Shown here: piece after piece, positions 4,445 through 42,656 of the stretch | How positions within the stretch are numbered: the first letter of the stretch is position 1 | How the letters are laid out: each line of letters begins with the position of its first letter | Source of the DNA: a virus | Length of the DNA stretch: 42,900 nt | Direction: 5' to 3' (one strand) | Virus record (IMG/VR): IMGVR_UViG_3300033141_004410 | Span: 1 to 42,900 of that record | Position numbers and translations under genes: made by a program | The notes under the pieces: model-generated | Seen by the model: only the letters and a program-made list of their open reading frames with translations | Databases searched by the model: none | What the model was told of the DNA's origin: nothing

Positions 4445-6595
4445 ATGAATCTTCGAAGGTTTATCTTGGGCTCGAAGAGACTCTTGAAAGCTCTAAGAGA
4501 TGAAGGGGCCTCATCGTTCTCGAACTCCTATATCTGCGGGACAACTGATAGACTAGATAAGGCTTATTCATATTTGAAGTCGAGTGCCCGAGATAAGGAT
4601 ATGGGGGCTCTTAGTGCTGAGAATCCGAGGTTCCTATACTTGACTCCAGGGAGGCATCAGATCTCAAGCACTCTACACCTCGATACGGATTACGTCTATC
4701 TGAAGGCTCTCTGCGGAGGACCTTGTGTAGTCGAGAATACAGGTTCTGGAAGAGCTCTAAACGTAACTACGGCTTTCACGAGCTTTAATGGGATCCTCTT
4801 CTTAGACTCCGAAGATAAAGCAGACTCAATTCTCCATGTAAGTTCTCCTGGAGAGCTTGAGCCTCGAACTTTATTGAGACCTAAAGAGAGAACTCCCTTT
4901 GGGATGAAGGTTCTCTGGAGGATGCCTTGCGATAATGCAGATGAGATCTCAAGTGTCTCTAATTGTACGAAAGCTACTTCGACTGCAAGGGCTCGAGAAT
5001 CTAACGCAGAGACTCCGAGTTCAATTAAAATTACGGGAGACTCATCAGGTTCGTACTTCAACTTCACTTCTACAACCTTCAGTCCTAAGGTTGATATAAA
5101 GGGCAAGTTCATTCTCGTGAGGTTCTACCTTGAGGAGGGGACTCCAGCAACTGAAAGTTCTTGCTATATGCTCGCGACGATCTCGATGACCCTTTATAGC
5201 AAGTACTCAAGTCCTCGTGAGTATGTCACGGGGACTATCTATACGGTGAGTGGAGGACTCGAGAGATTCTATCCCGGCTGGCATGAGATAGTAATTGGTC
5301 CGGGGGATTGGGAAACTAGGACCTCAGATTTCGATCCTACATCGATTGAGAACCTCAAACTACAGTTTAATGTTGGATATTATGATACTCCAAATGCAGG
5401 ACAGACTATTTATTTAGATTCGATTCAAGTCTTAGAGCCTCTCGAAACAGGAATCCTTTGCTGGGTTCTAGACGACGCTTTCGAGTACGACGAGACGATC
5501 CAGGGAAATATCACGGACACGAATATAGAGATTCTCGACTATGCAGCTTCTAGGAATGTCCCGATCTCGGTTATGGTAACTCCCTCTTTCGTGGGGACTT
5601 CGAGTGGGACTGCTCCGAATAGAAGGCTCTATATGGATTGGGATGAGCTGAGAAATGCTCAAAACCAAGGACACTTGATTTGTAATCATACTCACGAGCA
5701 CTTGGACTGCAAGTGGAGGGACTCCGATGGTTTGGATAACTTCCTTGCGGGAATAGAGAATGCTGCGAATGCTCTGATCTCTAGGGGCTTCGTCGAAGGA
5801 GCGAGACTCCTAGCCCTTCCTTATGGGAAGTTCGAGACCGATAATGATTTCACAGTCGACTATACGACTTGGGATGACGCAGCTTGTGATAACAATACAC
5901 TCTGGTTTAGGAATCAAGACCTCGTGAGTGTCTTTAAGAAGTATAATTATATTTATTATCCAAGTGGAGCTGATGAGGGCTGGTATGAAATCTCTAGTGT
6001 CTCGCTTGCGGATTGTGGAGATGGCGAGGGAGACGCAGATGATACTAAGATTGAAATGGCAGATGCCCTCCCGACCCTCACTTGGAGGAATATAAATATC
6101 ACGAGCGTGAGGAGAAAGGACACGGAACTTGCTCTTCCCCTCCATGATGATGAGATGATGGAGAGGATCTATAAAGCAGTTGATTTGATTAGAATTGGAG
6201 GCTATAGAACTTCGACGGCTATTTATAATCCTAAACTTGTTAGGAGCTCCTGTGCTCCAGATCACGTTATTGTAAGGAATGGAACTCCATCGTTCTATAC
6301 AGTTGCGAATCTTGTTGTTCAGGATAGAGGTGTAGGTCTCGTTTATGGACACTATCCTAGTGCAACGGGAACTTATGGATATACGAAACAGGAGCTCTAT
6401 GACTTCATTGATTATATTGCAGATCTGAGAGATCAAGGAAAACTCACGCTTTGTACCTTGAAGGATTTGAGAGATATGAAATTCGTCGAGTCTGAGCCCT
6501 TTAAGGCTAAGGCTCCCGAATATGAACCTGCAGATGATCTCCTAGTGTATGAGGGAGATCTCGTCACAGTAGATGGAAATGTTGTTGCTGTCTAG
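4445..6595 (+). CDS. tailspike with polysaccharide deacetylase domain
   Basis: This 716-aa protein has a short basic N-terminal part, a beta-helix-like segment (about 65-120, FLYLTPGRHQIS onward), a beta-sandwich that looks carbohydrate-binding (about 195-332), and then a NodB-type deacetylase (about 335-465). Visible catalytic motifs are VLDDAFE (341-347), NHTHEH (414-419, the metal-binding histidines) and ALPYGK (457-462). Such enzymes remove acetyl groups from surface polysaccharide using a divalent metal. The layout fits a receptor-binding spike that modifies host capsule or O-antigen. Residues after about 480 continue the fold and include inserted segments. The anchoring site on the tail is not identifiable. 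Confidence 0.8.
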   Translation: MNLRRFILGSKRLLKALRDEGASSFSNSYICGTTDRLDKAYSYLKSSARDKDMGALSAENPRFLYLTPGRHQISSTLHLDTDYVYLKALCGGPCVVENTGSGRALNVTTAFTSFNGILFLDSEDKADSILHVSSPGELEPRTLLRPKERTPFGMKVLWRMPCDNADEISSVSNCTKATSTARARESNAETPSSIKITGDSSGSYFNFTSTTFSPKVDIKGKFILVRFYLEEGTPATESSCYMLATISMTLYSKYSSPREYVTGTIYTVSGGLERFYPGWHEIVIGPGDWETRTSDFDPTSIENLKLQFNVGYYDTPNAGQTIYLDSIQVLEPLETGILCWVLDDAFEYDETIQGNITDTNIEILDYAASRNVPISVMVTPSFVGTSSGTAPNRRLYMDWDELRNAQNQGHLICNHTHEHLDCKWRDSDGLDNFLAGIENAANALISRGFVEGARLLALPYGKFETDNDFTVDYTTWDDAACDNNTLWFRNQDLVSVFKKYNYIYYPSGADEGWYEISSVSLADCGDGEGDADDTKIEMADALPTLTWRNINITSVRRKDTELALPLHDDEMMERIYKAVDLIRIGGYRTSTAIYNPKLVRSSCAPDHVIVRNGTPSFYTVANLVVQDRGVGLVYGHYPSATGTYGYTKQELYDFIDYIADLRDQGKLTLCTLKDLRDMKFVESEPFKAKAPEYEPADDLLVYEGDLVTVDGNVVAV

Positions 6596-27497: not shown

Positions 27498-27824
27498 TTA
27501 GACCTCCTTTAAATCTCCATGCCGATAGTCTCGAGTCTTATTGTAGAGCATCTTCTCTTCCGTCCTAGCTTGGAGATCAATTCCATAAAACTCACAGAGA
27601 TCTAAGAGTCTTATGAAGAGATCCGCGAGCTCTGACTCTACTCCACAGGGCTTATTACTCTCGTGCCAGAAGGCAAAGCCTCTCTTCCGATAGGCTTCAA
27701 GAGCCTCTGAGAGCTCGCTATGAAGAAGGGCAATCAAAGCTCCAAAGCTCCGATCCGAGTCCCAGAAACCCTTCTCTACCGCAGTCTTGTGAGCCAGTCT
27801 CTGAAGTTCCTTGATCGTCCTCAT
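27498..27824 (-). CDS. MazG-like nucleotide pyrophosphohydrolase
   Basis: The 108-aa protein has the all-alpha NTP pyrophosphohydrolase signature: SELSEALEAYR (36-46, with E37 and E40) and ESELADLFIRLLDL (63-76, with E65 and D68), which together bind magnesium. It would hydrolyse nucleoside or deoxynucleoside triphosphates and so adjust pools or an alarmone. The ATG overlaps the polymerase stop (ATGA). Phage MazG proteins are common; the substrate cannot be read from sequence. Confidence 0.82.
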   Translation of the reverse strand: MRTIKELQRLAHKTAVEKGFWDSDRSFGALIALLHSELSEALEAYRKRGFAFWHESNKPCGVESELADLFIRLLDLCEFYGIDLQARTEEKMLYNKTRDYRHGDLKEV

Positions 27825-30136
27825 TTTAATTCCTCCATATCATACCAATTCTTGCCAATAGAGAACTCAATTGGGATTTTAAGTGGAATCTCAACTCCTT
27901 CTATCTTAATCTCAGGACTTAGACACTCTTTCATTATCTCAACACACTCTTTCGTTCTGCTCTCGAGAGCTTCCACTACGATCTCGTCGTGAACTTGCAA
28001 GAGAGGGAAGCAACCTTTAGGGAGTTTTCGATCGAGGAGAAAGAAAGCCCTATTTATGATGTCTGCAACAAGGCTTTGAGGAAGAAAAGAATAAGCACTC
28101 TTGAAGGTCTCGTGATCGAGTCTCCCTAGGAAGATTTGAATTCTCCCAAAGGGAGTATCCAGTCTTCGAGTTCTAGTAACTTCTTGCTCGATGTATCTCC
28201 ACCATCTAAGGAGCTCTGGGTTCGAAGCTTTATATCTATCGAGAGCTCTCTTTGCCAATGAATAAGGAACTCCAGCTTGTTTGACTGCGATTCTAGGTCC
28301 TCCTCCATAGTTCGCAGCGTGGAGACAAGTCTTTGCAATTTGCCTTTGCTCTTTCGTTATACTAGATGTGTCGAAAATCTGAGAAGCATTCCACTTATGA
28401 ATGTCGAACTTAGGATCGAGGAAGTTCTTAATTAGAGTCTCGTTCTTTGAGAGCCAAGCAACTGCTCGAGCTTCGGCTTGAGAGAGATCAGCCTTAATTA
28501 AGAGCGAGCCCGGAGAAGCTATGAAGATCCTTCTAATCTCCCCACGAGGGATGTTCTGAAGATTTCCTCCGAGTCCCCTTGGAGTCTTAGAGCTTGAGAT
28601 TCTTCCAGAAACCGTCCCTGTAGCATTATAGGAGGTCCGCATTCTCATCCTGCTATCAAGCTTTGCTCTTAGGACTGTCGAAAGGAGCTTGATGTTTCGT
28701 CGATATTCTAAGCATAGATCGAAGATCTCGGAGTATTGAAGATATTTAGATCTTAGCTTCAAGAGGGCTTCCTCATCGACTGTAGTCGATCCAGTTGAGC
28801 GCTTCCTTTGAGGAGGCAAGCCCAAGTCCTTATAGAGAAAATCCTTCATTTGCTTCGGAGAATTTGGATTGATCTTTCTCTTCGTAACTCTCTCGAGCTT
28901 CTCAAGACACTCTTTCGCTTTCCTCTCAGTCTCCTTAGCAAGCTTTTCTCTAAGATCCAAGTCTATCAAGATTCCTCTATTCCCTGCTCGCGCTAGAGCA
29001 ATCATAGCGGGTTCAGCAAGACTCTTATAGAAGTCCCAAACTCCAAGCTCCTCGGCTTCTTCTCTTAGTCTCTCCGAGACCTCGAAAGTAACACAAGCAT
29101 CGTAGCAATTGTATCTCCAGGTTGAGAGATCACTTTGAACATCGTAGTCCGAATATCGAGGGACTTTCGTATAGATCGAGCATAAGAAATCGAGGCTCTT
29201 TGGAAGCTGAGAATAGCAACAATGTTGAACTACCATTGTATCCATATAGAGGTTCTCGATCTCGAAGCCAAACTCTCTTGCGAGGAAACTTGCGTCGAAG
29301 GGGAAGTTCTGAGCGATCTTCTCGACTTCCTTATCTCTAAACATTTGATCTAGAGCGACGAGGATTTGCTCTTCTTCAGATTCGGTCCAATAGGACCCAG
29401 AGGCTTCGGTTTTTAAGAGAGTCCTTCCCTTAGTACTTAGGGAGTATTGAGTTCTCATGAAGGGAATACTTAGGACCCTTGTAGGAGACGAAGCTAGAGC
29501 AAGGCATCTTACACGATCTCCAGAGGTCTCGATGTCGAAGGAGATCCTCCCGTTTCTCTCAGAGAGGAAGCTTAGAACTTGATCTATCGAGGGCTCTAAG
29601 ATAAATTCTCGCTCAGGGAGATCTAAGGTTTTAGTTTCGGATTCCTCGAGGACTCTCTTAAGATCAAGTTCTAAAATAGCTCTCTTGTTATACATTCTTA
29701 GGACGAACGCAGGATGATAGGTTGGAATAACTTTGAAGTTCTCTTGCTCGATTATGGAGCCTCTCCATTTCTCTATCGAGAGAGGTCTCCCTACGAGGGC
29801 TCTAAGAGCTTCTGCCCCAAGACAGCATACTACATTTGGGGAGCGAGATTGAATCTCCTCCCTTAAAGCTTCGATTGATTTTAAGAGAAAGGTCGAGGGC
29901 TCCCTTCGAGACTTATCTCGGTAGAAGGAAGAAAAATCATTTCTTGGAGGTCTTTGTTTTACGACATTCGTGATATAGCAAACTCTTCGATTTATTCCTG
30001 CTCTCGCGAGGCAAGCATCTAGGAGTCTCCCAGAGGCTCCAACAAAGGGTCTTCCCTTAAGCTCTTCGTCCTTGCCTGGAGCTTCTCCTACGAAGACTAT
30101 CTTGGCTCGAGATGGTCCTTCTCCTGGGACGATCAT
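27821..30136 (-). CDS. uracil-DNA glycosylase fused to 3'-5' exonuclease and PolA-family DNA polymerase
   Basis: The 771-aa replicase has three domains. Residues 1-165 are a UDG like families 4/5: GEAPGKDEE (17-25), GRPFVGASGRLLD (28-40), NVVKQRPP (57-64) and HPAFVLR (141-147). Residues 195-370 are a proofreading exonuclease with DIET (201-204), NFPFD (277-281) and YNCYD (342-346). Residues 375-771 are a family A polymerase: motif A KADLSQAEAR (549-558, D550), motif B RQIAK...NYG (598-611) and motif C VHDE (715-718). The position equal to E. coli Pol I F762 is His606. The fusion would link uracil recognition with replication. Confidence 0.92.
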   Translation of the reverse strand: MIVPGEGPSRAKIVFVGEAPGKDEELKGRPFVGASGRLLDACLARAGINRRVCYITNVVKQRPPRNDFSSFYRDKSRREPSTFLLKSIEALREEIQSRSPNVVCCLGAEALRALVGRPLSIEKWRGSIIEQENFKVIPTYHPAFVLRMYNKRAILELDLKRVLEESETKTLDLPEREFILEPSIDQVLSFLSERNGRISFDIETSGDRVRCLALASSPTRVLSIPFMRTQYSLSTKGRTLLKTEASGSYWTESEEEQILVALDQMFRDKEVEKIAQNFPFDASFLAREFGFEIENLYMDTMVVQHCCYSQLPKSLDFLCSIYTKVPRYSDYDVQSDLSTWRYNCYDACVTFEVSERLREEAEELGVWDFYKSLAEPAMIALARAGNRGILIDLDLREKLAKETERKAKECLEKLERVTKRKINPNSPKQMKDFLYKDLGLPPQRKRSTGSTTVDEEALLKLRSKYLQYSEIFDLCLEYRRNIKLLSTVLRAKLDSRMRMRTSYNATGTVSGRISSSKTPRGLGGNLQNIPRGEIRRIFIASPGSLLIKADLSQAEARAVAWLSKNETLIKNFLDPKFDIHKWNASQIFDTSSITKEQRQIAKTCLHAANYGGGPRIAVKQAGVPYSLAKRALDRYKASNPELLRWWRYIEQEVTRTRRLDTPFGRIQIFLGRLDHETFKSAYSFLPQSLVADIINRAFFLLDRKLPKGCFPLLQVHDEIVVEALESRTKECVEIMKECLSPEIKIEGVEIPLKIPIEFSIGKNWYDMEELK

Positions 30137-30137
30137 C

Positions 30138-31460
30138 TTATTTCTCCTTAAGTCTCTCTTGAGCTCTTAGAAAGTGTTCTCTATCTAGCTCGAAGCCTAA
30201 AGCTCTTCTGCCTAGAGCTTTCGCAGCAACTAGAGTCGATCCACTTCCTGCGAAGGGATCGAAAACTAAGTCTCCAATGTTTGTAGATTGCCTTATGAGG
30301 AACTCTAGGAGCTCTTGAGGTTTCTCGAAGGGATGGCGCTTCTCTTGGGAGCTCAAGGGAGGATAAAGGAGGACCTTCCTTGCAGGAGCATTTAGTCTCT
30401 TCTCTCGAGGCTCCTTACATCCGAAGAGAATAAGCTCATAACATGGACAGTAGGTGAGTCCACTGAAGGGAGCTGTCGGGCGTCCCTTGTCCCATACGAG
30501 AGGGACTTCATCTACGATCAAGTGATTAGCTTTGAGGGAGTAAATGAGATGATCATATAAGCAAATCGTATGGAAGAAATAGAAATGACCTTTTGGTTTT
30601 AGGACTCTCTTGAGTTCCGGAGCGAGCTTTCCTAAGAGCTCTGAGATCTCAAGGGAATTTAAATTATCTGAGTCTTTCAAGGTCCGAGAATAGGTTATTG
30701 CTTTTCTTTGAATATCTTTCTCTCGACGTTCCTCGATCGCTTCGACTCCGAAGGGAGGATCAGTTAAAATTAAGTCGACAGACTCGTCTTCAAGACTCTT
30801 AATGAGTTCTAGACAATCTCCTAAGAGGAGCTCCGAAGAAAGCTCAACCTTCCCTAGCTTGTGGAGCCTCTCAATACGCTCCGCTTCGAGCTTCTGATCG
30901 ACGCTCTTCATTGCAACTTTGAGCGGCAGAGTCTTTACTTGCTCTTTGAGATCCGGTCTTTCTCTCAAGATCTTTGCAAACTTGATCTCACGAGCAACCG
31001 CAGAGCGAGATCTCCCTATCGTTTCTGCAGTTTTCTCGATAGTCCAGCCTTCACCTCCCTCAGCTCCTTGGAGCTTTGAGCCATGAAGCTCGCGCTTAAG
31101 CTCGTCGAGCTGGCGAGTTAGTTCAATCTGTTCTGACCACTCAAGATCTTCTCGTTCAAGATTCTCTTCAAGCTCAATTTCTTTTTGCTGGATTCTAGAA
31201 AGCTCTTCTCTGAAAGTACAGGGAACTTCTCTCCAGCCGAGCATAAGAATAGCTCGAAACCTTCGTTCTCCTGCAACGAGCCTATATTTCCATTTGGAGT
31301 CTCCTTCAATTCTGGTAACAACCAGAGGATGAAGTAATCCGAGTCTTCTAATTGAATCACAGAGACTCTGAATTCGCTTGAAGTCTTTTCGTCCTCGGTC
31401 TTTCTCGACTTTGATCTCCTTAACATCTATTAGGACTCCCTTCTTATATTGCTTCGACAT
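30138..31460 (-). CDS. ParB-like domain fused to DNA methyltransferase
   Basis: This 440-aa fusion starts with a ParB/Srx-type domain: [10 protein letters not shown] (61-70) and [10 protein letters not shown] (96-105). An HTH follows (about 140-163, [20 protein letters not shown]). A beta-class amino-methyltransferase completes it: catalytic motif DPPF (234-237) before the AdoMet site DPFAGSGST (401-409). DPPF suggests N6-adenine methylation. Such fusions occur in phages and may protect DNA from restriction. It ends one base before the polymerase gene. Confidence 0.88.
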
Positions 31461-33874: not shown

Positions 33875-34486
33875 TTAGGTTCCTTTCTGTGAGATTTCTA
33901 GAATCCATTTTTGAATCTTGATTATTGCGTTCTGAACTAAGCGATTTGCCATCCTTAGAGAAACTCCATATCGACGGCCGATCTGCTCTCCCGTAAGGCC
34001 CTGATAGAATCTTAGGTAAATATATTGTTTGTCTGATTTAGAGAGACTCGGACACTTCATTAAACAATCTAAGAGTTGAATCCTATCGAGGCGAGTGTTA
34101 ATCTCGTCGAAAGCTTCTCGCTCGGAGAGTCTTACGACTTCACGGAAGACCTCAGGGTTTTGATCGAATGAGACTTCTTTAAGTCTCTGATGCTTGCGAA
34201 TAGCGTCGATGCATCGGCTCTTCACTATAGTCCAAGTGAGAGGCTTTTTGTGGGTCCAAAGCTCGGTCCAGATTCCCACGGAGATCTCCTCAACGTCGAG
34301 GGATTTCAAGCCTTTGAGAAAGAACCTCACGCGAGCTTCGATCTGATGGAGATCGTCGATCGTCAGAACCCCGCGAGCTTTCTCTGCTCTGGAGTCATTA
34401 GGCTCAAGATCCTCTCTAGGTCCTTCTGCTCTCGACTCTTTTGCTTTGGATTCTCTGTCCTTAGGAGTCTCAGCTTCTCGAGCCAT
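33875..34486 (-). CDS. sigma-70 family (ECF-like) RNA polymerase sigma factor
   Basis: Region 2-like sequence spans about 41-105 (DLHQIEARVRFFLKGLKSLDVEEISVGIWTELW, then SRCIDAIRKHQRLKEVSFD). Region 4 spans about 136-195 with its HTH at 164-188 (LTGEQIGRRYGVSLRMANRLVQ). The ATG at 34486 has AGGTG upstream, but residues 1-40 are low-complexity and overlap a plausible small gene in another frame; the true start may lie near 34366. A phage sigma factor would redirect host polymerase to phage promoters, with the 19-nt motif as candidate target. Confidence 0.8.
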   Translation of the reverse strand: MAREAETPKDRESKAKESRAEGPREDLEPNDSRAEKARGVLTIDDLHQIEARVRFFLKGLKSLDVEEISVGIWTELWTHKKPLTWTIVKSRCIDAIRKHQRLKEVSFDQNPEVFREVVRLSEREAFDEINTRLDRIQLLDCLMKCPSLSKSDKQYIYLRFYQGLTGEQIGRRYGVSLRMANRLVQNAIIKIQKWILEISQKGT

Positions 34487-34533
34487 GCGTCACCTCGCTT
34501 TCTAAAAGGAGTTTCTAAGGGTTCAATCATCAT
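34363..34533 (-). CDS. possible small protein, 56 aa, overlapping the sigma gene
   Basis: ATG ATG follows the stop of the XRE gene by one base. The product is helical and basic with ordinary composition (containing DAWLEKLRLLR and KDLERILSLMTPEQRKL), which looks more protein-like than the sigma frame over the same bases. It would end at TGA overlapping a CTG codon of the sigma gene. No family is recognised and the ribosome site is weak. Either this gene or the annotated sigma N-terminus may be the artefact. Confidence 0.4.
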   Translation of the reverse strand: MMIEPLETPFRKRGDAWLEKLRLLRTENPKQKSREQKDLERILSLMTPEQRKLAGF

Positions 34534-34534
34534 T

Positions 34535-34819
34535 TTACCATCTCTTGTCTTGGAAAATCAAGATTAGATCAAAGTTTAAGGTATCCGCAATGTCGGAAAG
34601 TGTCCTTAGGAGAAAGCTCTCATTAGTTCGAGAGCTCTCATATTTTTGGACACTCGTTTTTCCATGCCCAAGCTTCTCGCCTAGCTCCTTCTGCGTGAGT
34701 CCCTTAGCCTTTCTTATGCGCTTTATAATATCTCCGAGGAGACAATTTGTTTCTACTACTCGCTTGAGCTTCGAGGGCTCAAACATCGGTTTTCTGAAGT
34801 GATAGAATCTTACTTCCAT
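34535..34819 (-). CDS. XRE-family HTH regulator, 94 aa
   Basis: Residues 30-85 form a Cro/CI-type HTH: IIKRIRKAKGLTQKELGEKLGHGKTSVQKYESSRTN, then LRTLSDIADTLNFDL. AGAGG lies eight bases before the ATG. No C-terminal oligomerisation or protease domain is present, so it is a small repressor or activator rather than a CI-type lysogeny switch. It sits directly upstream of the sigma gene and could control it. Confidence 0.8.
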   Translation of the reverse strand: MEVRFYHFRKPMFEPSKLKRVVETNCLLGDIIKRIRKAKGLTQKELGEKLGHGKTSVQKYESSRTNESFLLRTLSDIADTLNFDLILIFQDKRW

Positions 34820-34831
34820 TTCTTTAAGCCT

Positions 34832-35122
34832 CTAAAGGGATCTTTTCTCCTTCTCAATGAGAGCTTTCAGTTCGGGACTATGGCGCTCGATGAGGCGCAG
34901 TAGGGCCTCTCCGCAAGTGTAACACAGGTCGCATTGCTCAGGCTCATAATCACCATCGATTGAATACCAAATCTCCAACTTGCCTGCTCCAGTGCCCATG
35001 CCGCCCCACTCCCAGCAGAAGTTGTGCGGATACTCGGCCTTTTTACCACATATATCACAATATAGCCCGACGCATACTTTGCGCTCTACTATCGTCTTTT
35101 TTATATCTTTATACTGTCTCAA
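34832..35122 (-). CDS. CDICGK-family zinc protein, copy 1, 96 aa
   Basis: The start is probably TTG at 35122, which overlaps the stop of the small membrane gene. Metal-binding pairs are CDICGK (22-27) and CDLCYTCG (about 64-71), followed by a helical end (LLRLIERHSPELKALIEKEK). It shares this plan with the gene at 41714-41974 (CDICGKEA, then CPSCSRSLINLISREPQALSKL). The function is unknown; the ribbon could bind nucleic acid or a host protein. Confidence 0.7.
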   Translation of the reverse strand: MRQYKDIKKTIVERKVCVGLYCDICGKKAEYPHNFCWEWGGMGTGAGKLEIWYSIDGDYEPEQCDLCYTCGEALLRLIERHSPELKALIEKEKRSL

Positions 35123-35265
35123 GATCTTTTCTCTCTCCCTTTATATAAATCATCTCTCTCAAATCTGTGAGGAGCCTCTCGTTGAGAACCTATCCACCAG
35201 AGAGTGAAGACGAGTCCTAAGATGAATCCAATTCCTGCACTTGAGCATTCTCTGATTATCCACAT
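35119..35265 (-). CDS. small single-span membrane protein, 48 aa
   Basis: GGAGGAG, the strongest ribosome site I noticed, lies eight bases before this ATG. The start overlaps the upstream stop (ATGA) and the stop overlaps the next TTG (TTGA). Residues 8-27 (SSAGIGFILGLVFTLWWIGS) are a membrane span, followed by a charged tail of about 20 residues. It could be a holin or an early membrane-acting peptide. It occupies what otherwise looks like a gap. Confidence 0.65.
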   Translation of the reverse strand: MWIIRECSSAGIGFILGLVFTLWWIGSQREAPHRFERDDLYKGREKRS

Positions 35266-35675
35266 CAGCGATTCTCCTCCACGATCTTACGCCACTTGTC
35301 GCGCAGCCTGGTCACAGCCCTGTTACCGCCTTTCGTGTAAGCATCTCGCACGTCCTCCAAGAACTGTAGTTCCAAGCGAGCCAACCGAAGGCAGCGCTTG
35401 CAATGGGGGACGCGGTTCCACAACCCTTTTAGGTGCCTATCATGTTCGTGCCGCTGATGATAACTCCACAGGCAGTACGGCGAGAGATAGCAATCCTCGT
35501 GGGAGGCTGTAGCTACCGGGCAGAGGAATTCGCCCCAACAGCAGTCCCGCAGGAATAGCGCACACAGCGGACAATCGTCTCTCCCGCGGTCCGCGGTCTT
35601 ACACGACCGTACGATCCGCTTCCACTTCGCGATTGAGCCGTCTAGTGCCTTCAACACTTCTGCTTTCGTCAACAT
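35265..35675 (-). CDS. KALDGSI-family zinc protein, copy 1, 136 aa
   Basis: This is one of three paralogues (also 35691-36047 and 38251-38649). Shared parts are EVLKALDGSIAKWKRIVRS (6-24), a cysteine cluster CPLC...CC...CPV (about 35-52), a central PYCLWSYHQRHEH, and HCKRCLRLARLELQFLEDV (about 90-109). The cysteines and histidines could bind two zinc ions. This copy is visibly richer in G and C than its paralogues and neighbours, which hints at separate acquisition. The function is unknown. Confidence 0.72.
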   Translation of the reverse strand: MLTKAEVLKALDGSIAKWKRIVRSCKTADRGRDDCPLCALFLRDCCWGEFLCPVATASHEDCYLSPYCLWSYHQRHEHDRHLKGLWNRVPHCKRCLRLARLELQFLEDVRDAYTKGGNRAVTRLRDKWRKIVEENR

Positions 35676-35690: not shown

Positions 35691-36047
35691 TTAAGCATTG
35701 TTTGCGAGAACTCCAGATCCTAAGACGAAGGCTGTTTTTATTCTCTCCAGGAACTCGCGTTCTAGTCGAGCGAGTCTAAGACACTCCTTACAGTGAGGTT
35801 CTCGATGATATCTGAATCTCTTTCTCTTGTGTGCTAAACGCTGATGTCGAACCCAAGCCTCGTAAGGTGTCGATACACATCCAGGAGCTCCTACGTGAGC
35901 CATGATGGGACAGTCAAAACATACTCCTAATTGACATAGAGGACAATTGGAGCTCCCTCGATCTTCAGCTTCTGTAGATCTCTCGATTCTTTTCCATTTA
36001 AGAATCGAGCCATCGAGAGCTTTTAAGACTTCCTCTTTCGCTGGCAC
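35691..36047 (-). CDS. KALDGSI-family zinc protein, copy 2, 118 aa
   Basis: The GTG start with AGGAG upstream shares one base with the preceding stop. It has EVLKALDGSILKWKRIERS, CPLCQLGVCFDCPIM, PYEAWVRHQRLAH and HCKECLRLARLEREFLERI, matching copy 1 almost block for block. Its codon use is like the rest of the genome, unlike copy 1. The function is unknown. Confidence 0.72.
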   Translation of the reverse strand: MPAKEEVLKALDGSILKWKRIERSTEAEDRGSSNCPLCQLGVCFDCPIMAHVGAPGCVSTPYEAWVRHQRLAHKRKRFRYHREPHCKECLRLARLEREFLERIKTAFVLGSGVLANNA

Positions 36048-37249: not shown

Positions 37250-37597
37250 CTACTTAAGGTTCAGCCATCCGTTTCTCTCAAGTGTGTCGTATAAAGCAAC
37301 TGAGAGTACCGAGAGATCGTCATGGTCCTCTTCGAGAGAACTTAGTCTTAGCGAATAGATAATCCCGTGAAGCGTCTCGTGGAGGATCGTCTCTAAGATG
37401 TCGTCGATAGTCCTCTTTCCTCGGAAGACCCGGATCTTTCTTTCCCAGTAATTTATTTGTCCCATGAGGGATTCTCTTCGATTCTCGTCGACCTCGTTTA
37501 TCGAGTCGAAGTACTCGATTTGATAGAGTTTCCCTAGGATCCTCAAGCTCGAAGGGAGGTATTTGATCTTATCTAGGAATGGGAAAAAATCACTCAT
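37250..37597 (-). CDS. HExxH metallopeptidase-like protein, 115 aa
   Basis: A zinc-protease motif HETLH (69-73, inside ILETILHETLHGIIY) is followed by EEDHDDLSVLSVALYDTLERNGWL, where the third ligand may be an acidic residue. The pattern matches small phage proteins that I know as putative metallopeptidases. The N-terminal part has beta strands (LRILGKLYQIEYFDS). It might cleave a host regulator, as ImmA/IrrE proteases do, but this is not shown. Confidence 0.68.
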   Translation of the reverse strand: MSDFFPFLDKIKYLPSSLRILGKLYQIEYFDSINEVDENRRESLMGQINYWERKIRVFRGKRTIDDILETILHETLHGIIYSLRLSSLEEDHDDLSVLSVALYDTLERNGWLNLK

Positions 37598-37620
37598 TTC
37601 TTTGTGTCCTTTCTAAAGCT

Positions 37621-38235
37621 TTAAAGTTCTAAGATTCTTAGGTCCTCGAACCTCGACGGCCACTTATTCTCGAGTTTACAGCGCTTGAGCTCTGAGATGC
37701 TCTCTTCAATTGAGTTTTCTGCGTTATCGAGGGTGTAGTCTGATACTCTCCATACTCCACAGCGAGTGGGTTCTAAGATCTCGATTACAACTACGTAGGT
37801 CGGATATGTGTGTCCCGAGTTCTTCTCGATTAGGGCTCGAGTGAAAGCGTAGTCGATGGCGAGTTCTTTTTGTCGGGCGGATCTTGGAAAATAGTCGAGA
37901 GAAGCTGTGAATTGGATGGAGGTAATTCCTCTCTCTGGGTTGAAGAAATCTACTCGAGCCTGACAGGGGAGATCGTAGAGGGTCCCTCTTACGGTTGAGA
38001 GGGCTAAACCCTTGGAAAGTAAGAGGGAGGCAAAGTGGTGGCTCTTGAGGGTCTTGGAGAAACGCGAGAGGTCCTTAACGAACTCCTCGTGGAGGGCAAA
38101 GTGCTCGAGATGCTCCGACTCTCTTTGACGATAGTGAAGAGGACTCTTGCGAAAGAGTTTGAGGTCCTCGATTATGAGGAACTCTTTCCTCTTCTCGAGA
38201 TAGGTTTCAAGGCTTTCTTTTAGGAGGAAATCCAT
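37621..38235 (-). CDS. RecE-like PD-(D/E)XK protein lacking the catalytic D/E-x-K
   Basis: The overall pattern of this 204-aa protein follows phage exonucleases of the RecE/YqaJ type: LYDLPCQARVDFFNPERGI (about 86-104), then a long helix (RQKELAIDYAFTRALIEK) and a strand (YVVVIEI). D96 is in place, but where the family has DLKTT or similar, this protein reads SIQFTAS (106-112), so both the second acidic residue and the lysine are missing. It is probably inactive and may have a binding or regulatory role. Confidence 0.6.
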   Translation of the reverse strand: MDFLLKESLETYLEKRKEFLIIEDLKLFRKSPLHYRQRESEHLEHFALHEEFVKDLSRFSKTLKSHHFASLLLSKGLALSTVRGTLYDLPCQARVDFFNPERGITSIQFTASLDYFPRSARQKELAIDYAFTRALIEKNSGHTYPTYVVVIEILEPTRCGVWRVSDYTLDNAENSIEESISELKRCKLENKWPSRFEDLRILEL

Positions 38236-38250
38236 TTTGAAACTCCTTTC

Positions 38251-38649
38251 TTAACAACGATACTCGGAAAAGTCATGGTTCCTGACTGCATTATAACCTC
38301 CCTTGGAGAACTCTCGATAAACTTCCTCAAGGAACTTAAGTTCTCTCCTCGAGGTGTAGAGACATTCCTTGCAATACGGGTGACGGTGAAAGGCTTTAGA
38401 TTTCTCTGCTCTATGCTCAAGGCTCTGGTGACAGAGCCAAAGACTGTAAGGAGAGTCCACACAGCCTCTCGCCCCAGTTGCCCAAAAAACTGGACACTGC
38501 GAGCAGCCTTCGTCACGGAGAACGGCTGAGAAGAGCTTGCAGAGGGCACAGTTCTCTGGTCCAAGGTCTAGAGCTTTCGTGGATCTTACGATCTTTCTCC
38601 ACTTGGATATGGATTGCTTAAGAGCCTTTAATACGATTTTCTCGTTCAT
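38251..38649 (-). CDS. KALDGSI-family zinc protein, copy 3, 132 aa
   Basis: I take the ATG at 38649, six bases after GGGGAG. It has VLKALKQSISKWRKIVRSTKALD, CALC and CSQCPV, DSPYSLWLCHQSLEH, and YCKECLYTSRRELKFLEEVY, matching copies 1 and 2. It lies two kilobases from them, behind the first beta-solenoid gene, so the copies are dispersed rather than strictly tandem. Confidence 0.72.
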   Translation of the reverse strand: MNEKIVLKALKQSISKWRKIVRSTKALDLGPENCALCKLFSAVLRDEGCSQCPVFWATGARGCVDSPYSLWLCHQSLEHRAEKSKAFHRHPYCKECLYTSRRELKFLEEVYREFSKGGYNAVRNHDFSEYRC

Positions 38650-38650
38650 T

Positions 38651-39370
38651 TCAATTCTCCCCAAGCGTTTGAATAGAGACATTCCGAGGGATTAGCTCTA
38701 AGTTCCTCAGATTAAGTTTTCCAAAGCACTGGATTTGGACCTTCTCTCCGACTAAAGAGAGCTTCGAGAGGTTCAGAGAAGCTAAGCTATAGATGATTGA
38801 ACTATGTCTCAGAGATGATAGGTTGGAGAGCGCGAGCCATCCCGATGAAGAGAGATGACAGTTTCTCTCGATTGAGGCTAGGGATGGAGCGGAGATGAAG
38901 TTTCTTGCAAAGATCTTGCAATCATCTTCGATTGTCTCTAGCTCGGAGAGGGAAATACTTTCGGCTTGGAGGAAAGAACCCTTGGGGAGGATTTTGAGAG
39001 CCTTTAAGGAAAGGGTTCTCAAAGTCTCTATGATGAGGGGTCTTGAAGAGAACTCGAGGTCGTCGAGGATTAGAGAATCTCTCGAAGAGAGCTTTCCTTC
39101 TCTAGTGCGAGCTTTCCAAACCTCATAGAGCTGAGCTCGAGCGTCTCTTTCGTGAGCTTGAGTCCACCAGAGGGGCCTTTCTCCGGCGAAGACTAGGTCG
39201 AAGTTTTCTAGGCCCTCGAAGTCTCGACGGGGACGGAGCTCGATCGATAGGGAGTCTCTGAGAGAGAAGTGCTTGCGGATTTTCTCGTGGGAGTCTGTGT
39301 GTTTTAGTGAGTAGACTCTGAGGGAGCTCTCGTCTATTCTAATCGCTACTCCAGCTTGAGCATGGCACAT
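38651..39370 (-). CDS. MCxAxSGVAV beta-solenoid protein, copy 1, 239 aa
   Basis: This is one of three paralogues (also 40093-40884 and 40917-41711). The N-terminal domain (about 1-95) has the shared blocks MCHAQAGVAI, YSLKHTDSHEKIRKHFSLRD, WWTQAHERDARAQLYEVW. The C-terminal part (about 100-239) is built of roughly 20-residue repeats with regular leucines and isoleucines (LSLKALKILPKGS, ISLSELETIEDDC), as in leucine-rich or solenoid folds. A GGAGG site precedes it. Similar proteins with the MCxA start occur in other phages as I recall; their function is unknown. Confidence 0.75.
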   Translation of the reverse strand: MCHAQAGVAIRIDESSLRVYSLKHTDSHEKIRKHFSLRDSLSIELRPRRDFEGLENFDLVFAGERPLWWTQAHERDARAQLYEVWKARTREGKLSSRDSLILDDLEFSSRPLIIETLRTLSLKALKILPKGSFLQAESISLSELETIEDDCKIFARNFISAPSLASIERNCHLSSSGWLALSNLSSLRHSSIIYSLASLNLSKLSLVGEKVQIQCFGKLNLRNLELIPRNVSIQTLGEN

Positions 39371-39373
39371 CTT

Positions 39374-39610
39374 TTAAGGCCTCCTCATAAGGTTCGTTGC
39401 GATGGTCTCGTCCCAGGGTTTCTCTTCGTCTTCAAGGATGTGAATGGGCTTTGAGCCTGAGGGGAAGACAGTGACCTCAGGACCGCGCAAGCCATCGTCG
39501 CTCATGAAAGTGATGGTGAGCCAGCGAGTTCCTTTGAAAGAACCTGTCTTTAGAGAGACTTTGTCAACATCATGGACATTGATGCTGCCTGCGTAAGGTT
39601 TCTTTGTCAT
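39374..39610 (-). CDS. small beta protein, copy 1, 78 aa
   Basis: This is one of three neighbouring paralogues. The shared pattern is INVHDVDKVSLKTGSFKGTRWLTITF, then EVTVFP (about 10-50). Histidine, tryptophan and the FP pair are kept in all three. The gene has GGAG nine bases upstream of the ATG. It looks like a compact all-beta protein of unknown role. Confidence 0.7.
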   Translation of the reverse strand: MTKKPYAGSINVHDVDKVSLKTGSFKGTRWLTITFMSDDGLRGPEVTVFPSGSKPIHILEDEEKPWDETIATNLMRRP

Positions 39611-39837
39611 TTTCGAGTCTCCTTAATAGAACAAACCGAAGGTTCAGAGAGATCCAAGGTCAAGGGCATGGGAGTCTCTAGGTCGAGGGGGAAGATTGTG
39701 ATCTCGAAGTATCCTAGACGACCCTTTAGTCTAATGGTGAGCCACTTGCTTGAGCCTACAGCCCTTGTGCTCATTTCGATCTCCTTCACGTAGTGGATAC
39801 AAAATCTCGAAGGTCTGGGTCTGTCGTCGTAAGACAT
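39607..39837 (-). CDS. small beta protein, copy 2, 76 aa
   Basis: Shared blocks are FCIHYVKEIEMSTRAVGSSKWLTIRL and FEITIFP. GGAG lies before the ATG in the same leader (GGAGACCTAAAATG) as copy 3, showing that the leaders were duplicated along with the genes. It overlaps copy 1 by four bases. Confidence 0.7.
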   Translation of the reverse strand: MSYDDRPRPSRFCIHYVKEIEMSTRAVGSSKWLTIRLKGRLGYFEITIFPLDLETPMPLTLDLSEPSVCSIKETRK

Positions 39838-39838
39838 T

Positions 39839-40081
39839 TTAGGTCTCCTTTGGAAAAGAGGTTAGTTTCAGGAGATGAGGGTCGAAGTGGTTGGAGAGGG
39901 GAAAGAGCTCGATGGAACTTAGGTCCTTGCGAGGGAACACCATAATGGTTCGAGTACCCTCCTTTCCTCGGAGATAGAAGGTGATCCATCGAGTTCCCCG
40001 ATAGTCTCCAGTTGACACTTCGATTGACTCTACGTGATGGATGCAAATTGTGCCGACTGAGGGTTCTAGAGGCTCAGACAT
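39839..40081 (-). CDS. small beta protein, copy 3, 80 aa
   Basis: Shared blocks are ICIHHVESIEVSTGDYRGTRWITFYL and TIMVFP; it is closest to copy 2 over the first strands and to copy 1 at RGTRW. The leader is GGAGACCTAAAATG. The end is variable. The function is unknown. Confidence 0.7.
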   Translation of the reverse strand: MSEPLEPSVGTICIHHVESIEVSTGDYRGTRWITFYLRGKEGTRTIMVFPRKDLSSIELFPLSNHFDPHLLKLTSFPKET

Positions 40082-40092
40082 TTTAGGTCTCC

Positions 40093-40884
40093 TTAAATGA
40101 GGTCCTGGATTTTGGGAAAACCTTTGTAGACTCCTTTCGAGAGATAGATTGTTGGGGCTTGGATTAGGGAGGTCTTGGAGATCTCTTTAGGGTCTCGAAG
40201 TTTGATGTGATCCCCTGAAGCTATCGTGACTCGGTCTTTGACTCTCTTTAGAGAAGGAAGCTCTATCGACCAGCTGGCGCAGATGATTGAGTCTTGGTGG
40301 ATTGACTGAGTGAAGTTCAGTCCAATGGCTCCTCCCATAATGATCGATCTCTGGGGGATTGAACTGAGTCTTGAGAGGATGAGGGTGTCTGCTGAGAGCA
40401 TTATTTTGGTGCCGGACTTCTCGACGATCCTTAGGTTGAGTGTCTTCCTGGCTTTCAGTTTTGTGCCTGAGGGAAGCTCGGTAAGGCTGCTAAGGATAAG
40501 GGACCCTTGGGCACTGATCCCAATACCTTGAGGGAGGGCCTTTAGAGAGCTTAAGTCTAGGTCCTCGGGGAAGGGAAGAGCTCTCTTGTCGATCCAACGG
40601 GAGAGCCAAGCTTGGTGGAGTTGAGAGATGGCGTCTTGAGTGTGGGAGTCGGTCCACCATGAGGGTCGACCTCCATCGAAGATGAATGTCATTCCTTTGA
40701 CGTCGAAGAGGTCGTCGACGGGAATGAGCTCGACGGGGGTTTGATACGCACTAAGGGGATTGTTGTGGTCTCGGAGTTTGTAGTACTCGCGGATCCTTTG
40801 GTGAGAGTCTGAGTGCTTTAGGGTGAAGACTTCAACGTGAGACTCATTTTTCATAACTGCGATGCCTGAGATTGCTCTACACAT
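40093..40884 (-). CDS. MCxAxSGVAV beta-solenoid protein, copy 2, 263 aa
   Basis: I take the ATG at 40884 (GGAG nine bases upstream), which begins MCRAISGIAV as in the other copies; the longer open frame is not supported. N-terminal blocks are FTLKHSDSHQRIREYYKLRD, PVELIPVDDLF and WWTDSHTQDAISQL. Solenoid repeats follow from about residue 105 (LDLSSLKALPQGI, LILSSLTELPSGT, LILSRLSSIPQRS). The spacing of the repeats is regular to near the end. Confidence 0.76.
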   Translation of the reverse strand: MCRAISGIAVMKNESHVEVFTLKHSDSHQRIREYYKLRDHNNPLSAYQTPVELIPVDDLFDVKGMTFIFDGGRPSWWTDSHTQDAISQLHQAWLSRWIDKRALPFPEDLDLSSLKALPQGIGISAQGSLILSSLTELPSGTKLKARKTLNLRIVEKSGTKIMLSADTLILSRLSSIPQRSIIMGGAIGLNFTQSIHQDSIICASWSIELPSLKRVKDRVTIASGDHIKLRDPKEISKTSLIQAPTIYLSKGVYKGFPKIQDLI

Positions 40885-40916
40885 TTCTGGTCTCCTTTCT
40901 CTTGAGGAATGGTTTC

Positions 40917-41711
40917 TTATTTTGAGAGCTCCTTTAGGAGTTGTTTGAGAGTGAGGTTCTGGCCCTTCCATGAGATCTTGGAGGCTCTAACTCGAGCGGT
41001 TGGGGATATTCTTTCTATGTCTCGAAGGTAGAGAGTCCCTCTAATGTTTAGGACTACTCCAGAGTGGATTGCTCTCAATCGGTGTAAGTTGGTTGAGGCG
41101 AGGATCGTGACTATTGAGTTTCTGTGAATCGTCTCGAGGTCAGGGAGATATGCTTGAGTGGAAGCGAAAACGATAGAGCTTGGAGGGAGGGCTCTAAGGG
41201 CTGGCGCAGAGAGGGCTCGACAGTCAATAATAAGCTGGCTCTTGGCATTGAAGACCTGGCTGAGTCGAATTTCTCCAGAAGTCAAGAGAGTGACGTCCTT
41301 GGGGATTGAGGAGATGGAGCTAAGAATGAGTGATCCACAGGTGCTTAGCTCGACATTTGGAGGGAGGGCTTTTAGGTCTCGAAGGTTGATGTCGCCTTTC
41401 ATGAAGAGTCTCTTGCCTCTGAAGCGACGTTTCCAAGCTGAGGCTAGTTGGGAGATCGCAGAGTGTGAGTGTGCTTCGGTCCACCAGTTGGGAACTGGAG
41501 CGTCGACTTTGAAGTGGCCGCTCGAGATGTTGAGGAGGTTTTCAAGAGGGATTAGCTCGACAGGTACTTGGTAGCGACAGAGGGGGGATTGAGTGTCGTT
41601 TAGATTATAGTGCTCGCGAACAACTTGATGGCTGTCGGAATTGACTAGGGTGTAGACCTCTACTTCGGTCTCGGATTTGCGAACGGCTACTCCTGAGATT
41701 GCTTGACACAT
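40917..41711 (-). CDS. MCxAxSGVAV beta-solenoid protein, copy 3, 264 aa
   Basis: It begins MCQAISGVAV with AAAGGAG upstream. Shared blocks are YTLVNSDSHQVVREHYNLND, PVELIPLENLL and WWTEAHSHSAISQLASAW. Solenoid repeats start near 105 (INLRDLKALPPNV, LILSSISSIPKDV, and so on). It is closest to copy 2. The conserved histidines, tryptophans and cysteine of the N-terminal domain could form a binding or active site. Confidence 0.76.
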   Translation of the reverse strand: MCQAISGVAVRKSETEVEVYTLVNSDSHQVVREHYNLNDTQSPLCRYQVPVELIPLENLLNISSGHFKVDAPVPNWWTEAHSHSAISQLASAWKRRFRGKRLFMKGDINLRDLKALPPNVELSTCGSLILSSISSIPKDVTLLTSGEIRLSQVFNAKSQLIIDCRALSAPALRALPPSSIVFASTQAYLPDLETIHRNSIVTILASTNLHRLRAIHSGVVLNIRGTLYLRDIERISPTARVRASKISWKGQNLTLKQLLKELSK

Positions 41712-41713
41712 TT

Positions 41714-41974
41714 TTAATTCTCCTTTCTTTGGAAGAGCTTGGAGAGGGCTTGGGGCTCTCGAGAGATTAGGTTAATCAGGGATCGAGAACAAGAGGGACA
41801 GAGGTCGACGGTGTAGAAATAGGTTATGCTCAGACCCTCGAGTTTCGTGGGGTAGAGAGGGTTGTTTGAGGCCCAGAGACCCTGCTTGGGGTCGTCGGCC
41901 TCCTTTCCACAGATGTCACACTTGAGTTTCGTGCAAGTTTGAGTGAAGGTTTTGATTCTCTTGAGTTCCTTCAT
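41714..41974 (-). CDS. CDICGK-family zinc protein, copy 2, 86 aa
   Basis: CDICGKEADDP (19-29) and LCPSCSRSLINLI (about 58-70) give two metal-binding pairs, as in the gene at 34832-35122. The ATG overlaps the preceding stop (ATGA). The middle part differs between the two. It may be a nucleic-acid or protein adaptor of the early block. Confidence 0.7.
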   Translation of the reverse strand: MKELKRIKTFTQTCTKLKCDICGKEADDPKQGLWASNNPLYPTKLEGLSITYFYTVDLCPSCSRSLINLISREPQALSKLFQRKEN

Positions 41975-42282
41975 TTTTGGGTCTCCTTTCTTTTCTCGAG
42001 GGTTTTTAGGAGTTCAAGAGCGGATCTTAGCTGAGGTCTTGGGCCTCGATTAGTTTGAGGTTTATTCTCTTTCGAGGGTTTCCTTCGAGTGTGAGAGAAG
42101 GCTTCGGCTAGGGCTCCTGGGCCGTAGAGGGAGTGGAGGTAAGTGTTGCGACAGATGATGGCGTCGCTTAGGTTCTCACATAGAGCGATGTGTTTGCCCT
42201 TGTAGAGGACCTGGTATTTTCCTCTCAGGGAGTGCCAGTAGATTTTCCAGAAGCGCTTGTCGGTTTTCTTTCGTTTTCTCAT
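41971..42282 (-). CDS. AP2-like DNA-binding protein, 103 aa
   Basis: I take the ATG at 42282, which overlaps the endolysin stop; the long upstream frame is out-of-frame translation of the endolysin gene. Residues 10-55 (FWKIYWHSLRGKYQVLYKGKHIALCENLSDAIICRNTYLHSLYG) follow the AP2-like pattern found at the end of many phage HNH endonucleases: three strands and a helix. No HNH nuclease part is present. The C-terminus is basic and proline-rich. It probably binds DNA. Confidence 0.6.
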   Translation of the reverse strand: MRKRKKTDKRFWKIYWHSLRGKYQVLYKGKHIALCENLSDAIICRNTYLHSLYGPGALAEAFSHTRRKPSKENKPQTNRGPRPQLRSALELLKTLEKRKETQK

Positions 42283-42656
42283 TTTGAGTTCTCTAGTTGT
42301 TTTAAGATAGAGATTAGGGTCTTGGCTCGTCTCCAATAAGGGAGGGTTGAATTCTTTCTCCAGCCGAAAGGTCCTCCGTTGTGTATGCGAGCGCGGAGCT
42401 CGAGCTCGGGGAGGGTACAGCCTTGAGAGCGGGCTAGTTTTGAGTAGTGAGAGGTGTAGATGAGAAACATGTGGATGGACTTTGAGATTGAAAGGCGGTC
42501 CTCGAGGGTGAAGAGGTCTCGGTTGAGAATGCGGTTTACGTCTCTGACGTAAATAGGGTGGATCTGGAGGATGCCGAGAGCCTGCTCGCGAGGGTTGTAG
42601 GCTTGGGGGTTTAGGGAGGACTCGATTATGGATAGGGCTAGGATTAGGGTTTTCAC
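42279..42656 (-). CDS. SLT/lysozyme-like endolysin, 125 aa
   Basis: The GTG at 42656 with AGGAG upstream is the best start. Residues 5-35 show ALSIIESSLNPQAYNPREQALGILQI: the catalytic glutamate E12 with the following serine, then the G-(L/I)-x-Q-I block, as in goose-type lysozyme and lytic transglycosylase (SLT) folds. It would cut the glycan strands of peptidoglycan. It has no signal peptide and is far from the lipoprotein/holin-like group at 7.4-8.3 kb, in the early-oriented block. Confidence 0.72.
   Translation of the reverse strand: MKTLILALSIIESSLNPQAYNPREQALGILQIHPIYVRDVNRILNRDLFTLEDRLSISKSIHMFLIYTSHYSKLARSQGCTLPELELRARIHNGGPFGWRKNSTLPYWRRAKTLISILKQLENSK

Follow-up and report, generated by a model that had tools for sequence, protein, structure and literature searches.

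The window, by which we mean the whole stretch of DNA analyzed, is the complete IMG/VR viral record IMGVR_UViG_3300033141_004410 of 42,900 bases. Structural genes (terminase and an SU10/P22-type portal) occupy the plus strand from ~2 to 26 kb, and the replication arm lies on the minus strand, running from 42.8 down to 26 kb, with polymerase, DUF3987, ParB-methyltransferase, AAA, and PDDEXK genes. The 5' part of this arm, a dense and co-directional stretch at its presumed promoter-proximal end, contains three families of three genes each (MC, b, and K) and a pair of CDICGK genes (Z). These genes and two single-copy neighbors that belong to no family are listed below.

41714..41974, minus strand: Z1, 86 aa, CDICGK zinc-ribbon-like protein (blastp and alignment)
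40917..41711, minus strand: MC1, 264 aa, N-terminal MC domain and LRR-like solenoid, the solenoid with a net charge of +13
40093..40884, minus strand: MC2, 263 aa, same architecture as MC1, nearest to the relative at locus L003
39839..40081, minus strand: b1, 80 aa, small beta-type protein
39607..39837, minus strand: b2, 76 aa, exact GGAGACCTAAAATG leader in common with b1
39374..39610, minus strand: b3, 78 aa, member of the b family
38651..39370, minus strand: MC3, 239 aa, the most divergent copy
38251..38649, minus strand: K3, 132 aa, Cys-rich, start moved to the ATG at 38649
37621..38235, minus strand: DUF3799/exonuclease VIII-like PDDEXK nuclease, single-copy, context (Pfam E 2.8e-10; phrog_412 E 1.3e-4)
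37250..37597, minus strand: protein with a HETLHGI (HExxH) motif, single-copy, weakly SprT-like, context (phrog_1233 E 1.1e-8)
35691..36047, minus strand: K2, 118 aa, Cys-rich KALDGSI protein, outside 37250-42282
35265..35675, minus strand: K1, 136 aa, Cys-rich KALDGSI protein, outside 37250-42282
34832..35122, minus strand: Z2, 96 aa, CDICGK zinc-ribbon-like paralogue of Z1, outside 37250-42282

Along the minus strand, the order is Z-MC-MC-b-b-b-MC-K, the DUF3799 nuclease, the HExxH protein, four small genes, and K-K, with six other genes separating K3 from the K-K run. The nuclease sits between K3 and K2, with K3 directly upstream. For K3, a start at 38649 rather than 38682 is most likely. 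The preliminary description had delimited the block as 37250-42282, a span that leaves out K1, K2, and one CDICGK gene (34832-35122) and takes in the nuclease and the HExxH-type gene. It had also called the families interleaved, which is too strong for tandem runs (MC-MC-b-b-b-MC-K and then K-K) that barely interleave. Its labels “lytic” and “early” derive from position, and it is from position that we, too, infer early expression of the block.

We compared all ORFs of the window with each other by blastp, the E-values referring to a small database. The proposed homology of three MC, three K, and three b copies and of the two CDICGK proteins was borne out, with E-values of 1e-27 to 1e-52 for MC pairs, 1e-26 to 1e-30 for K pairs, ~1e-8 for b1-b2 and b1-b3, only 0.003 for b2-b3, and 3e-8 for Z1/Z2. 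Conserved motifs are visible throughout the family alignments. Every copy is intact and retains its Cys and motif residues, and protein identity between copies is 28-50%.

A leader sequence common to the families had been proposed as well. The exact 14-mer GGAGACCTAAAATG precedes b1 and b2 alone; at the other genes, the leader consists of an AAGGAG Shine-Dalgarno site and an A-rich spacer, which also precede the first ORF, the SLT-domain gene described below, the DUF3799 nuclease, and the polymerase. Because the same Shine-Dalgarno site is present before genes outside the families, the leader is no evidence of common descent, and the argument for a common origin drawn from it was rejected. The exact 14-mer before b1 and b2 fits a tandem duplication.

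The replication arm's second gene (42279-42656, minus strand) encodes a transglycosylase-SLT-domain protein of 125 aa far from the structural genes, and a muralytic-type gene at this place is unexpected. To the eye, the 102-aa protein at 41975-42282 (minus strand; phrog_99 E 0.0057) is similar to the AP2-like DNA-binding portion of an HNH endonuclease, with no evident HNH part.

As controls, we used 11 phage records of 38-44 kb, a small and non-random sample taken from polymerase and terminase hits, all processed with the same ORF caller and at a single blastp threshold. They contained 0-2 multi-copy families each and none in six of the 11; ANMV-1 alone had a three-member family, made up of genes with the annotation capsid tail fibre and a neighbor. 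The window yielded three multi-copy families by the caller, and four with b added, a family masked in this count because a shadow ORF displaced b1. Relative to these 11 controls, such an excess of families is unusual for a genome of this size. Manatee Spring phage ctMlz233 (MW202489), which is related through its polymerase, shares with the window the replication order PDDEXK, AAA, methyltransferase, polymerase and a structural arm on the opposite strand; unlike the window, it yielded neither a multi-copy family nor any relative of MC, K, or b.

The preliminary description recognized no function in any of the families, and this held in Pfam, NCBIfam, PHROGs, and PADLOC. MC, K, and b gave no significant match in Pfam, NCBIfam, or PADLOC, whose models cover defence proteins and not counter-defence in general, and their PHROG matches were at noise level. 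Scans with short degenerate motifs, which may miss rarer or more distant relatives, located relatives of K in 11 further viral contigs, of which two are near-identical, and relatives of MC in two, each with a single copy; b relatives were found nowhere beyond the window. Searches of isolate phages and plasmids by tblastn (K and MC against 50,697 phage records, K against plasmids) returned nothing convincing and nothing beyond matches at E 0.2. When cellular genomes were scanned for MC with a degenerate DNA pattern, 76 loci of genome_contigs matched, none of which was a true relative by profile, and a looser viral pattern gave three matches, all by chance. Searches run with no positive control returned no MC in 294 genomes of one phylum and no K in 398 genomes of Thioclava's phylum. 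The literature offered nothing directly relevant, either on an anti-defence role of LRR proteins in phages or on early genes present in triplicate.

The MC proteins combine a conserved N-terminal domain of ~97 residues with a solenoid of 20-residue LRR-like repeats. An AF2 model built from five sequences (pLDDT 88.8, pTM 0.80) shows an alpha/beta N-domain to about residue 97 followed by a strand-rich beta solenoid, with regular strands across residues 101-253; its best fold matches have TM-scores of 0.3-0.5. In each of the five MC proteins, the autocorrelation of hydrophobicity has its peak at 20 residues. Tandem 20-29-residue repeats with hydrophobic/leucine periodicity, by which leucine-rich repeats are recognized, are thus present in MC; no curated LRR model in Pfam, NCBIfam, or PHROG matched any MC protein. 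Foldseek matches in BFVD were the phage proteins A0A8S5PVB3, A0A6J5SXX7, and A0A6J7X9U5 (probability 1.00, 1.00, and 0.82); the best structural neighbors are uncharacterized phage proteins and one phage “leucine-rich repeat” protein, and the PDB gave no confident match. Compared with phage LRR-like solenoid proteins, the TM-scores of MC are low (0.3-0.5), and a Pfam LRR match is lacking. MC shares ~20-residue repeats and LPx-like turns with LPX-type LRR proteins of the SspH/IpaH kind. The MC profile touches the SspH1 LRR at noise level, however, and unlike those proteins, MC shows no sign of an E3 ligase domain.

At the DNA level, the repeats of two relatives are tandem 60-bp units, 96% alike at locus L017 and 85% alike at L003; no such repeat is left in the window copies. 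The L017 contig ends inside the repeats because its units are so alike. The 60-bp repeats of this MC relative (L017:9600-10091 and L122:1-333) reach across both ends of a 39-kb contig, which overlap by 20 bp; the assembly was thus closed or broken within the array, and the number of units it shows may differ from the true one.

Residues M1, C2, A4, G7, D26-S27-H28, P74, and W76-W77 are invariant in the five MC proteins. Removal of the initiator Met by methionine aminopeptidase would leave Cys2 N-terminal; a class II glutamine amidotransferase or other Ntn hydrolase would need such a Cys together with the Ntn fold. Cys2 is invariant in 5/5, but the N-domain, of only ~97 residues, matched none of the family libraries searched and no fold in the PDB. 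As far as the alignment goes, a catalytic role of Cys2 is suggested and not demonstrated. Among the window copies, N-domain identity is 38-53% and solenoid identity 24-29%; the solenoid also diverges faster than the N-domain between MC copies in different viruses. The solenoid net charge is +13, +8.9, and −1.1 across the three copies. The “varied targets” of the preliminary description gain indirect support from the divergence of the solenoid and from this charge range, although the faster solenoid change may reflect weaker constraint alone. MC as a DNA mimic was rejected, as the solenoids are basic or neutral, and so was a pentapeptide-repeat DNA mimic, the period being 20 and not five, with no Pfam match and no acidic surface.

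The 13 K sequences have in common a K-A-x-x-x-S-I-x-x-W core, a CxxC, a C..CP, and one further Cys. Cys35, -38, -52, and -62 are invariant in all 13, and Cys46 is present in nearly all. A His- and CxxC-containing insert occurs in the window copies and some relatives and is absent from other relatives. The AF2 model of K1 (pLDDT 88, pTM 0.86) is essentially all-helical around the Cys cluster and matched no fold in the BFVD viral structure library. Every K protein is basic (net charge +7 to +9). In the reading preferred below, K would probably bind zinc, followed by nucleic acid or a host protein.

Duplication with divergence, the origin proposed for all three families, is supported for b, a tandem trio found only in this window, two members of which have the same leader; it fits K and is plausible for MC. 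A branch with support of 94/98 separates the three window K copies from nine of 10 relatives, and a single clade of these copies was not rejected (p-AU 0.245). In the best MC tree, MC1-3 form one side of a branch with support of only 64/74, and the N-domain of MC2 is 61% identical to the L003 relative, 53% to MC1, and 42% to MC3. Since L003 is closer to MC2 than MC1 is, the MC sequences do not establish duplication in this lineage and would also allow an older duplication or separate acquisition.

These observations bear on a broader alternative, in which the copies came in independently, by horizontal transfer or recombination, from a phage pool of related accessory genes rather than arising here by duplication. 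The position of MC2, the single copies of K and of MC in other viruses, and the other genes that part MC3 and K3 from their kin all point that way. The K topology, the tandem b trio, and, despite its low support, the MC1-3 grouping argue against it, and we regard separate acquisition as a possible but rather unlikely account of the block.

Counter-defence gene amplification is known in phages, as for T4 tifA (PMC9391042) and in a SegB-driven form (PMC13096335), which makes a counter-defence reading of the block plausible, though it is no test of that reading. T4-like segmental amplification likewise produces extra accessory-gene copies in a phage genome. The T4-like segments are recent, however, whereas the window copies are fixed and diverged. 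Their 28-50% identity excludes recent amplification of the tifA type, in which near-identical copies lie adjacent.

A different account takes the paralogues as subunits of a hetero-oligomer (e.g. MC1-MC2-MC3 or K1-K2-K3), so that the copies would answer a structural need and not varied targets. Exactly three intact copies in each of three families, apparently in one transcription unit, would agree with this, but one copy of K or MC suffices in relatives, and conservation in MC is lowest at the solenoid surface, contrary to what a conserved interface would show. We consider the subunit model improbable.

To the same degree, we doubt that K assists phage homologous recombination or protection against host nucleases, with the rest of the block made up of unrelated small accessory genes. 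A recombination exonuclease, sometimes with an annealing protein, lies within a few kb of K in four of ~11 independent loci, a count made with no chance control: the window (DUF3799), L003 (YqaJ), L004 (ERF and YqaJ), and L014 (ERF and DUF3799). Most other K loci have no such neighbors in the stretch seen, however, and modules for recombination are frequent in the early regions of phages.

The reading that we tentatively prefer, although we place it a little short of an even chance, is that accessory proteins of a binding type, serving host takeover or counter-defence, expanded long ago in this particular lineage. In its most economical form, selection kept the copies of these accessory binders, which most likely act on host components, and we infer this last step from position, architecture, and copy number. 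The counter-defence or host-takeover role suggested in the preliminary description found no family match, PADLOC match, or telling genomic partner in our searches. Under the preferred reading, old tandem duplication and divergence would have produced an early accessory block, made up of three otherwise unrelated orphan families and one pair, in a phage with a P22/SU10-type portal. The MC proteins would be soluble binders whose conserved alpha/beta N-domain, with its invariant Cys2, carries the solenoid of LRR-like repeats. The N-domain would do one and the same job in all three copies, and the solenoid would serve as a recognition surface, altered in each copy toward a different host molecule or defence component; both ligand binding and the difference in targets are predictions from this architecture. 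K would contribute small, basic, Cys-rich helical modules and b small beta adaptors. A more specific version, which we think very improbable, makes MC an evolvable recognition system, in which a fixed effector domain acting through its N-terminal Cys would be kept in several copies against several host targets while the 60-bp units of the solenoid expand and diverge.

Phage early regions are among the main sources of unknown proteins for host takeover and counter-defence. That so compact a genome retains three orphan families, each in three diverged copies, suggests selection on them. MC offers a concrete module, a constant domain with a changeable binding surface. If partners are found, the three copies would form a natural series for how phage binders change target; if all copies have one target, the pattern would instead be one of subunit diversification.

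Several further features of the window deserve mention. In the replication arm, a uracil-DNA glycosylase domain is fused to the N terminus of a family A DNA polymerase (27821-30136, minus strand; Pfam UDG E 1.5e-31, DNA_pol_A E 4.5e-62). At least 80% of this fusion is covered in 79 phage records, each with <60% identity, and among the matches listed most are annotated as DNA polymerase. A ParB N-terminal domain is fused to an N6/N4 DNA methyltransferase at 30138-31460 (minus strand). At 33875-34819 (minus strand), a gene for a sigma-70-region-4 protein adjoins a Cro/CI-type HTH gene, a pair that could possibly form an early-to-late transcription switch. In the structural arm, a 716-aa protein with a polysaccharide-deacetylase domain (4445-6595, plus strand) is encoded between the terminase and portal genes. 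A run of 21 T closes the contig (42880-42900) and may be an assembly edge artefact.
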